Of a stretch of 64,000 nt of DNA, positions 12,316 to 46,601 are shown piece by piece. This stretch comes from Microcaldota archaeon (GTDB lineage: Archaea > Micrarchaeota > Micrarchaeia > Anstonellales > Bilamarchaeaceae). The position numbers were made by a program, and so were the translations under genes. The DNA lies in the NCBI GenBank assembly GCA_022627495.1, contig JAKEGJ010000024.1:1-64000 (forward strand), given 5' to 3'. Numbering within the stretch: the first letter of the stretch is position 1; every line of letters starts with the position of its first letter. The notes beneath the pieces were generated by a model. That model made no database searches, was not told the DNA's origin, and worked only from the letters and a program-made list of their open reading frames with translations.

Positions 12316-12361
12316 CTCGGTAGCTCAGATTGAACGGCATTCCGTTCAATTCGCTCCCGAG
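12316..12361 (+). ncRNA. Structured tRNA-mimicking leader hairpin upstream of tRNA-Asn
   Basis: CTCGGTAGCTCAG at 12316-12328 is identical for 13 bases to positions 12372-12384 of the tRNA-Asn gene. It does not continue into a tRNA. Instead ATTGAACGG-CATT-CCGTTCAAT forms a perfect 9-bp hairpin, extended by AGC/GCT and CTCGG/CCGAG, about 17 pairs in all. A TTTTTTAAAC box near 12282 would start transcription about 12309, so this element would be the leader of the pre-tRNA. It lacks an anticodon arm and T arm, so it is not a second tRNA. Confidence 0.5.
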
Positions 12362-12369
12362 TTATGAAT

Positions 12370-12523
12370 GCCTCGGTAGCTCAGTTGGTAGAGCGGCTGA
12401 CTGTTAAGGCTTTTTGACTTCTGTCTTTCTCCGGGCAAAAACCCTGGAAAAAGCCCTGAGGATAAAGGAGGTCAATACGCCAAAGCAATCAGCAGGCCAG
12501 AAGTTCAAATCTTCTCCGGGGCG
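12370..12523 (+). tRNA. tRNA-Asn(GTT) with an 81-nt intron
   Basis: The acceptor stem GCCTCGG pairs with CCGGGGC, followed by discriminator G and no encoded CCA. The D arm is GCTCAGTTGGTAGAGC. The anticodon arm is GCTGA-CTGTTAA-TCAGC with anticodon GTT, and the T arm is AGAAG-TTCAAAT-CTTCT. The anticodon loop is interrupted after base 37, the canonical archaeal position: exon 1 is 12370-12406, intron 12407-12487, exon 2 12488-12523. The intron contains TTGACTT/AGGTCAA and GGC/GCC pairings that could form the bulge-helix-bulge stem for the splicing endonuclease, and an internal CCGGG...CCTGG hairpin. Splicing would depend on RtcB and its cofactor archease, also encoded here. Confidence 0.92.
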
Positions 12524-44223: not shown

Positions 44224-45210
44224 ATGGGCGGTGAAGGACAGTCGGGGATTGTTATCCTAGTTTTTGCGGTTTTCGTTCTTTTTTCGGGTTGCGTCGGCGA
44301 CATTTTCGAATCCGATGACGAATTGGATAAGATTGTTAAGGCGGGGGATGCTTCCAAGTGCGCGGGCCTCAAGGAGGACAATAGCGGCTTCCGCAGGGAT
44401 TCCTGCTACCTTCAAATTGCCACCCGGAAGAACGACTCTTCCATATGCGCGGACATCAGATACGACGACACCGCAGACCAGTGCTATAATCACGTTGCCA
44501 AGGCGCTGGGCGACCCTACCATCTGCTATGACATGTCCAGCCCATCCTTCAAGTCGCAGTGCATCAGCGCCGCGGCTAAGGCGGGCGGCGACGTTTCCGC
44601 CTGCGACGATGTCGGCGACGAGATAGACAGGACGAACTGCCTGCAAGCTGTCGCAGTGGGCACTCTGGACGCGAACATCTGCCTAGAGATATCCAGCGAT
44701 GCCGGGCAGGAGAACTGCCTGCGGGCAATCGCAGAAGTGGCGGGGAATCCGGACATCTGCGCAGAGCTCGAGGATGCCGAAGACTGTTATATGAGCGTCG
44801 CGGAAGCCACAAAAAACGCCAGCATATGCGGCGAGATGGAGAACAAGACGCTCGCGGACAGATGCTATTCCAGGCTCGCGGGCATGAGGGAGGAAGCGAC
44901 GCTGTGCAACGAAGTGCTGGTGAACAAGGACAGGGATGACTGCTACGCCTCCGTCGCAGTCAAGAAAAGGGACGTTGGAATCTGCGAGAGGGTATACAAT
45001 AACACGGTGCATTACAATTGCGTCGAGGACATCGCGATGCTTGGCAAAGACGCTTCCGTCTGCTCCGGCCTGCCGACGCCGGGAGCCGTGGACAAGTGCA
45101 TGGCAGCTGTTGTGGACTATTACCCCAATCCCGCGGTCTGCGCCAACATCACGGAAGCGGCAGAGCTCGAAAACTGCAACGAATATGTGAGGATAAAATC
45201 CGGGGGGTGA
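44224..45210 (+). CDS. Lipoprotein with eleven Cys-pair repeats
   Basis: The 328-residue protein has a signal with lipobox (VFVLFSGC) and then eleven consecutive units of about 26 residues. Each unit has two Cys: [ND]xSICxDI(x)6DxCYxxVA is the pattern (DSSICADIRYDDTADQCYNHVA, PDICAELEDAEDCYMSVA, ASICGEMENKTLADRCYSRLA, and so on). Both Cys lie on predicted helices, so intra-repeat disulfides would make a rigid extracellular solenoid, somewhat like Sel1/TPR repeats. I know no named family with this exact unit. TTTTAAGAGC lies about 27 bases before the ATG. Function unknown; adhesion or a protein-binding scaffold is plausible. Confidence 0.75.
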   Translation: MGGEGQSGIVILVFAVFVLFSGCVGDIFESDDELDKIVKAGDASKCAGLKEDNSGFRRDSCYLQIATRKNDSSICADIRYDDTADQCYNHVAKALGDPTICYDMSSPSFKSQCISAAAKAGGDVSACDDVGDEIDRTNCLQAVAVGTLDANICLEISSDAGQENCLRAIAEVAGNPDICAELEDAEDCYMSVAEATKNASICGEMENKTLADRCYSRLAGMREEATLCNEVLVNKDRDDCYASVAVKKRDVGICERVYNNTVHYNCVEDIAMLGKDASVCSGLPTPGAVDKCMAAVVDYYPNPAVCANITEAAELENCNEYVRIKSGG

Positions 45211-45237: not shown

Positions 45238-45312
45238 TCAGAACTCAAGATTCGATGGCTGCTGCCATCTCCTCTCAAGTTCTGATTATCGGTCGATATC
45301 AGAACTCAAGAT
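45238..45312. ncRNA. Alternating hairpin element with three repeat arms
   Basis: TCAGAACT (45238-45245), AGTTCTGA (45278-45285) and TCAGAACT again (45299-45306) are three mutually complementary arms. The middle arm can pair with the left (8 bp, enclosing a GATGGC/GCCATC hairpin) or with the right (9 bp), but not both. Such alternatives resemble switch or attenuator RNAs, though no gene follows within the expected distance. Confidence 0.4.
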
Positions 45313-45383
45313 CGCGGTCATCGCCCTTGCGGGCTCTCAGGTATTGCATTCTCATCATTGGGTTTTCTATTGTCCAACGTAGG

Positions 45384-45390
45384 TTATAAT
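45384..45390 (+). promoter_or_regulatory. TATA-like box of the ncRNA candidate
   Basis: GGTTATAATC in an otherwise mixed sequence. Transcription would be expected about 26 bases later, near 45414, five bases before the first paired base of the structured element downstream. The surrounding sequence shows no ORF start that it would better explain. Confidence 0.4.
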
Positions 45391-45415
45391 CCTATCAAAC
45401 ATCCAAAAAGCAGCC

Positions 45416-45535
45416 ATACCGGGGGTTTGACCGGACAGGGTGTTTAATGAACTTCACGAGCGACCGGCGTCCCGGTCGCGTGTGTGCAGGGAACGAAGTT
45501 CCCTGACATTGACCGGTGTCAACCCGGAGAAAAAG
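45416..45535 (+). ncRNA. Candidate structured non-coding RNA
   Basis: A terminal stem can form between CCGGGGGTTTGAC (45419-45431) and GTCAACCCGG (45518-45527). Inside are two perfect hairpins: GCGACCGG-CGTC-CCGGTCGC (45460-45479, extended by CAC/GTG) and CAGGGAAC-GAA-GTTCCCTG (45487-45505). This multibranch fold, a TATA box at the right distance, and the absence of any ORF argue for a small RNA gene. It does not match tRNA, SRP or RNase P by eye. The rest of the 45211-45686 gap shows nothing more than A/G-rich sequence near the TFB stop. Confidence 0.5.
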
Positions 45536-45686
45536 TTCGGTCAGAGTGATATTCTACTTCATAGGGTTGCCCCTCAGCCTGTCAAACTCTCATCATCCCG
45601 AACGTTCCTATGATGCGCTCAGGTTAAAAGAATGACCAAAATACCGGAAGGGAAGAGAAAAATAGGAAAATGATAAGAAGAAAGAA

Positions 45687-46601
45687 TTAGAGATTGACCT
45701 TCAGGCCCAGCTCCTTCTTGAGCTCGCGGTAGCGGTTCCGTATCGTGACTTCCGTCACGCCTGCGACGTCCGCGACCTCCTTCTGGGTCTTCTTCTCTCC
45801 GTGCATCGCGCTCGCGATATAAAGCGCCGCTGCGGCCACGCCCGTCGGGCCCCTGCCTGAAATCAGGCCCTTCCTAAGCGCCTTGCGGATGAGCTTCACT
45901 GCCTCCTCCTGCACCTCTCCGCCCAGCTTGAGGGCGGTGGCGAACTTCGGCACGTACTGCGCCGGGTCTGTCAGAGGCACGTCGACCTTCAGTTCGGTCT
46001 TGAGGAAGCGGTACGCGCGGCCTATCTCCTTCTTCTCGATGCCTGATGCGCGTGAAATCTCATCCAATGTGCGAGGAATGCCCTGTAGCCTGCAGATGGC
46101 GTAGATGACCGCCGCTACGACGCTCTCGATCAGCCTTCCGCGGATGAGCTCTTCCTTGACGGCCCGCCGATAAAGCAGCGCCGCGCTCTCCTTGATGTTC
46201 TCCGGAAGGCCGAGGGACGATGCCACGCGGTCAAGTTCGGCAAGGGCTATCACCAGGTTCCGTTCCATCGACGTGGCTATGGAAACCCGCTTGTGCCATT
46301 TCCTCATGCGGTACAGCTGGGCCTGCTTCTTTGGGCTTATCTTGCCGCCGCGGATATCCCGGTTGTACTGGTCTATTTCGGTGACAAGGCCCTTGTTGGG
46401 CCTCATGTACTTAATCGGCGCACCGCCGCGGGCCTTCTTCTCCTTCTGCTCCGCGTCGAAAGCGCGCCACTCCGGCCCCATGTCGTGGATGTTCTCCGCG
46501 ATGATAAGGCCGCAGCTGGAGCATAGAAGCTCCCCCCGTTCATAATCGCGCACGACGCGCTTGCTCTTGCATTCTGGACATTTCGTTGCCGTAGCTCCCA
46601 T
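45687..46601 (-). CDS. tfb: Transcription initiation factor B (TFB)
   Basis: TFB recruits RNA polymerase to the TATA/TBP complex. The N-terminal zinc ribbon is CPECKSKRVVRDYERGELLCSSCG (CxxC...CxxC). The B-reader/finger region with EWRAFDAEQ follows. Two cyclin-like repeats come next: residues about 115-200 (IALAELDRVASSLGLPENIKESAALLYRRA...) and about 210-300 (KFATALKLGGEVQEEAVKLI...), with the helix-turn-helix VTEVTIRNRYREL at the end. The 304-residue length is normal. GGAGG stands seven bases before the ATG and TTATTAAA further upstream. Only one TFB copy is in the window. Confidence 0.96.
   Translation of the reverse strand: MGATATKCPECKSKRVVRDYERGELLCSSCGLIIAENIHDMGPEWRAFDAEQKEKKARGGAPIKYMRPNKGLVTEIDQYNRDIRGGKISPKKQAQLYRMRKWHKRVSIATSMERNLVIALAELDRVASSLGLPENIKESAALLYRRAVKEELIRGRLIESVVAAVIYAICRLQGIPRTLDEISRASGIEKKEIGRAYRFLKTELKVDVPLTDPAQYVPKFATALKLGGEVQEEAVKLIRKALRKGLISGRGPTGVAAAALYIASAMHGEKKTQKEVADVAGVTEVTIRNRYRELKKELGLKVNL

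Follow-up and report, generated by a model that had tools for sequence, protein, structure and literature searches.

A 54-bp double palindrome between two C/D-box sRNA genes of a micrarchaeote, very probably a copy of a short mobile DNA element

Results and discussion

The double hairpin downstream of the transcription initiation factor B (TFB) gene in the window, the 64,000-nt stretch of micrarchaeal DNA analysed here, very probably belongs to a family of mobile DNA elements, short non-autonomous double palindromes that are restricted to one micrarchaeal family. A preliminary description had presented positions 45416-45535 as a candidate non-coding RNA gene with its own promoter and closing stem. 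The region indeed contains a structured element, but the gene, its promoter and its closing stem proved wrong or unsupported. The conserved unit comprises only 45455-45508. It is absent from the orthologous place in the relative G008, where the flanking C/D-box sRNAs are conserved; in other species it is found again at loci unrelated to this one; and other copies occupy sites that are empty in relatives. It is on these three grounds that we regard its behaviour as that of a mobile repeat.

Sequence and fold of the double hairpin

Both hairpins are perfect, as originally reported. In the first, GCGACCGG (45460-45467) pairs with CCGGTCGC (45472-45479), and in the second, CAGGGAAC (45487-45494) pairs with GTTCCCTG (45498-45505). 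A thermodynamic fold of 45416-45535 as RNA reached -53.6 kcal/mol (z -4.53), a value equalled by none of 200 shuffled sequences; the wider stretch 45400-45550 gave a z of -3.50, and a 66-nt core folded as single-stranded DNA gave a z of -5.32. Single perfect hairpins are not rare in the window, because 10 with arms of at least 8 nt were observed and shuffled sequences contained 4-11. The two hairpins together are real and far from chance.

The proposed closing stem, with arms CCGGGGGTTTGAC (45419-45431) and GTCAACCCGG (45518-45527), survived only at its CCGGG/CCCGG end. Only these outermost five pairs of the stem form in the predicted 120-nt fold, and the wider context favours other pairings. 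In G008, the corresponding interval has arms that no longer match each other. The statement that no ORF fits has to be qualified, as a 57-aa GTG-started ORF (45440-45613, plus strand) overlaps the region, although it bears no coding sign. The view that the fold is not that of tRNA or another recognised RNA was upheld. Searches with the Rfam 15 covariance models at gathering and relaxed thresholds assigned no family to the element, sub-threshold matches being at chance level, and the sole gathering-level match in the window was a tRNA elsewhere. The features of C/D-box sRNAs (boxes C, D', C' and D, and guide spacers) are absent from the element itself.

TFB, the flanking sRNA genes and the TATA box

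The TFB gene is located at 45687-46601 on the minus strand (NCBIfam PRK00423, E 1.3e-133), and two C/D-box sRNA genes, also on the minus strand, are situated between it and a plus-strand gene ending at 45210. The latter (44224-45210) encodes a 328-aa protein with repeated cysteine motifs and no Pfam or NCBIfam match. sRNA A (45538-45600; ATGATGA-GAGTTTGACAGG-CTGA-..-ATGAAG-..-CTGA) adjoins TFB and is conserved, and sRNA B (45297-45363) has the layout ATGATGA-GAATGCAATAC-CTGA-hairpin-ATGAC-..-CTGA. Both obtained only below-threshold Rfam scores, yet all boxes are present, and several relatives retain the pair, guides included, in the neighbourhood of TFB. With the organism's own LSU rRNA (CCTGTCGAACTC), the D' guide of sRNA A forms 11 Watson-Crick pairs and 1 G-U pair, which is better than the best of 200 shuffled guides.

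The TTATAAT motif, previously noted at the expected distance before the candidate RNA, is present at 45384-45390. On the minus strand (ATTATAA), however, it precedes sRNA B by about 25 nt, the usual spacing of a TATA box in archaea. Judged by its position relative to box C, it more probably serves sRNA B as TATA box and would thus lend no support to a plus-strand transcript. The window contains two copies of the motif on one strand and three on the other.

Another inverted repeat, an imperfect one, lies at 45238-45285; its minus strand ends in the D-guide of sRNA B (ATCTTGAGTT-CTGA), and it is perhaps a decayed sRNA copy. The D'-C' spacer of sRNA B is occupied by short hairpins both here and in G014, and downstream of TFB in G013 (L009) each of the two C/D sRNAs has extra palindromic hairpins in its D'-C' spacer.

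The 54-bp unit and its empty sites

Alignment of the TFB-sRNA interval with that of G008 revealed one large gap, exactly 54 nt in length and corresponding to 45455-45508. The gap delimits a double palindrome, CACGAGCGACCGGCGTCCCGGTCGCGTGTGTGCAGGGAACGAAGTTCCCTGACA (CACGAG..CTGACA), that consists of hairpin 1 (45455-45484), with a conserved foot, CACGAGCGA..TCGCGTGTG, containing an A/G mismatch and with a perfect but variable upper stem, and hairpin 2 (45485-45508; TG-CAGGGAAC-gaa-GTTCCCTG-ACA), the stem of which is free in sequence and covaries. The left flank (45419-45454, plus strand), which contains the 5' closing-stem arm and GAACTT, and the right flank (45509-45537, plus strand), which contains GTCAACCCGG and AAAAAGTTC, align with G008 and belong to the older intergenic interval, so that both arms of the supposed closing stem fall outside the insert. 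Other relatives carrying the sRNA pair likewise have no such motif. The G008 assembly, a MAG, is 62% complete, and all of the compared genomes are drafts; the absence of the unit there could reflect loss rather than a never-inserted state.

DNA searches of relatives with the whole interval yielded fragments only, and these led to the element. Two fragments in G013 represent the same double hairpin with another stem (CGACCGG/CCGGTCG versus CGATCGG/CCGATCG). The sequence pattern CACGAGCG-N(8-20)-CGCGTGTGTGC was matched at five sites, distributed over four species of a single genus, and nowhere in a reversed control. These copies, referred to as class I, comprise the one described here, the two in G013 and one each in G004 and G009; their stems differ but are compensated, and their surroundings are unrelated. 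Class I is rare (5 copies in 60 genomes). Both G013 copies are insertions at sites that are empty in the window's own genome and in G009; the outer stem is GGAACC/GGTTCC in one, of 89 nt, and GGGAC/GTCCC in the other, of 62 nt. The G009 copy lies between genes read from sequence as rpL30e and nusA, for which no syntenic empty site was found in the examined part of the window's own genome. In G004 (L037, about 1370-1680), approximately eight perfect hairpins, including the class I unit, are nested in a closing stem, and this nest folds at -170 kcal/mol for 330 nt.

A wider family of paired hairpins

A census of hairpin doublets (adjacent perfect hairpins with arms of at least 8 nt and a gap of up to 14 nt) identified 21 in the 0.98 Mb examined, about two thirds of the window's own genome, versus none in a Markov control; side-by-side hairpin pairs are therefore rare by chance. 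In G009, 31 were found in 1.52 Mb, versus one in the control. The doublets of both genomes sort into several recurrent linker types. A covariance model built from the five class I copies detected weaker relatives, bringing the family to 13 of 59 genomes in all. Most of these belong to class II, which has a constant layout, TG-TC(10-bp stem including TC, 4-nt loop)GA-GCATGC-TC(10-bp stem, 4-nt loop)GA-CAT, the feet of one half repeating those of the other in inverted orientation. A pattern search of 295 genomes of the phylum detected class II in 13, all of them within the window's family, and a reversed-pattern control gave no hit in any genome. Dozens of such elements are dispersed across the genomes of one archaeal family, and their conserved linkers and ends recur at unrelated loci in four genera.

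Filled and empty orthologous sites were found in both directions between the window's own genome and G009: two are filled in G009 and empty in the former (L115/L224 and L199/L203), and two are filled in the former and empty in G009 (L111/L151 and L229/L145). The last two are 54-bp double-hairpin insertions that leave the ORFs open. One lies on the minus strand in a replication factor C (RFC) small subunit-like gene (L111, 9069-10082), so named from the sequence WTEKYRP...GPPGVGKT, which we take to be characteristic of that family; in the encoded 337-aa protein, the 18-residue insert precedes WTEKYRP. The other lies in the plus-strand Pus10 gene (L229, 16571-17797; 408 aa, Pfam PF21238), where the insert adjoins a CxxC of the zinc ribbon. 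These in-frame inserts belong to related classes and not to class I, and the case for the mobility of class I is made partly by analogy with these better sampled classes. By eye, no consistent target-site duplication was seen at the junctions in the filled/empty alignments, including those of the G008 and G013 sites, and no autonomous transposon sharing the ends of the element was found.

Palindromes may also be created or perfected locally, when the polymerase switches template at replication hairpins; linkers would then be shared through recombination between hairpin modules, and no transposition would be involved. The perfect arms with few wobble pairs, the nested hairpins, the hairpins within the D'-C' spacers of the G013 sRNAs and the recurrence of stem modules, TCGCGAACG and TCAAGGTCGG among them, are in line with this process. 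As a full account it is nevertheless improbable: whole units must be copied for linkers and ends to be conserved between unrelated loci in four genera, and the 54-bp insertions are clean, with nothing similar at the empty sites.

Palindromic arrays of another kind, derived from the 3' end of tRNA-Gly (CAATTCCCGGCGGTCGCA), were observed adjoining tRNA genes in two species (L229, 5059-5259; L223, 12449-12709; L145, 17612-17665). In the window, a perfect hairpin, ATTGAACGG/CCGTTCAAT (12329-12350), immediately precedes a long, probably intron-containing tRNA gene (12370-12523, plus strand) that was recognised by Rfam but not by ARAGORN.

Stem pairing at the DNA or RNA level

Both hairpins of the element show compensatory changes in relatives, and the same is true of the sister class. 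Among 19 class II copies, 14 of the 20 pairs have undergone two-sided changes, and 97.6% of cells are paired, compared with 80.5% in shuffles. We also gathered 65 distinct half-elements across the phylum with a pattern in which five stem pairs were unconstrained, so that their selection was blind to pairing. At these free positions, 96.6% of the pairs are Watson-Crick, compared with 43% when the arms were shuffled; G-T combinations (4 of 325) are about as rare as C-A (2 of 325). The 19 class II copies had given the impression that G-U is wholly absent, which this larger sample softened.

RNA under structural selection normally tolerates G-U, and the near absence of G-T would thus imply that the arms are matched at the DNA level. 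The pattern suggests that class II stems are upheld as DNA, either by a DNA-binding enzyme that needs the hairpin or by template switching that perfects the palindrome. For class I, with five copies, the argument is borrowed from this sister class and would hold by analogy.

These data bear directly on the possibility that the hairpins, enclosed by the closing stem, form a dedicated structured RNA that might act in trans or regulate TFB or the neighbouring sRNAs in cis. Its strong fold, compensatory changes and intergenic position are what such an RNA would show, and multi-hairpin versions of very low energy, such as that of G004, do exist. We nevertheless consider it very improbable, because the orthologous site is empty in G008, copies elsewhere occupy unrelated loci, the closing stem is not kept, the TATA box is accounted for by the minus-strand sRNA, sister-class stems are nearly devoid of G-T wobble and no Rfam family matches. 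An RNA role for the element is conceivable but not supported.

Proposed mode of movement and comparison with known systems

We regard a trans-acting, structure-reading enzyme that moves a non-autonomous unit as the most economical idea. The unit would consist of two perfect hairpins with a conserved linker and ends, the stems being free in sequence as long as the arms match. An enzyme supplied in trans would recognise the feet and linkers of both hairpins, either on extruded hairpins or in single-stranded DNA, and would move the unit as DNA. Either selection for this recognition or the repair of imperfect palindromes by template switching may keep the arms complementary. The present copy would have been inserted between the two C/D sRNA genes downstream of TFB, where it probably does nothing essential.

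The Y1-HUH transposases provide a known precedent for hairpin recognition, and one form of the mobile-element explanation would make the unit a REPIN or an IS200/IS605-type derivative, that is, an inverted pair of REP-like hairpins moved by a transposase of this type (RAYT). Class II is such a dyad, in that its two imperfect hairpins are inverted relative to each other and have invariant dimensions (a 10-bp stem and a 4-nt loop), and Y1_Tnp genes are present in the window's own genome and some relatives. REP sequences, moreover, change and yet stay palindromic (PMC2817692). This more specific identification is, however, rather unlikely. Y1_Tnp (PF01797) was detected in 15 of 59 relatives, with none in G008 or in G009, which has 31 doublets, and the copy in the window's own genome (G000, contig C22; L201, about 2038-2385) contains an in-frame TGA. 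Its presence is uncorrelated with copy number, and we rejected the Y1 transposase as the mover. Two defining features of REP/REPIN systems are missing: the feet (CACGAG../..TGACA in class I and TGTC../..GACA in class II) are not of the GTAG/CGTC type, and no RAYT flanked by repeats was seen. We therefore place the element outside REP/REPIN. It further differs in its low copy number, its free stems, which are far less conserved than those of REPs, its intragenic copies, and the lack of a consistent Y1 transposase in copy-bearing genomes.

It is mainly in Rickettsia that dispersed palindromes have been known to insert in frame into protein genes. The Rickettsia palindromic elements (RPEs) are short palindromic repeats that occur both in intergenic regions and in frame within conserved protein genes, with several families per genome and an unknown mover (PMC10969869, PMC2229807). 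With respect to in-frame insertion into genes they appear, by analogy, to be the closest precedent, given the 54-bp inserts of related classes in the RFC-S-like and Pus10 genes; the likeness is drawn from descriptions and not from RPE sequences, and the host here is a micrarchaeote. RPEs are bacterial families of approximately 105-150 bp, whereas the archaeal elements are double hairpins of 54-60 bp with conserved linkers and ends and free stems. MITEs are likewise small, non-autonomous and dispersed, with inverted repeats and presence/absence differences between relatives (PMC10969869); filled and empty sites were found here too, but neither the ends of a parental transposon nor a target-site duplication. 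The repetitive hairpin-forming elements (RHEs) of sponge mitochondrial genomes are described as also spreading through intergenic DNA (PMC2800124), although they reside in organelle genomes and are likened by description, not by motif.

A REP survey that included archaea makes no mention of Micrarchaeota (PMC12306157), and we found no description of such elements from this group in the open-access literature. The best reading is that the element is a palindromic mobile element, of an archaeal type not yet described, comparable to RPEs or REPINs. It is possible, although we put this forward only tentatively, that 54-60-bp double DNA hairpins make up an undescribed archaeal class in which only feet, linker and geometry are conserved, stems diversify freely as perfect palindromes, a structure-recognising enzyme moves the unit, and 18-codon in-frame segments are added to essential genes.

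Conclusions

The finding warns that covariation by itself is no proof of a functional RNA. The covarying, nearly wobble-free stems also constitute a natural data set on how palindromes are kept up at the DNA as opposed to the RNA level. For the biology of these archaea, the elements account for the odd hairpins in sRNA spacers and core genes.
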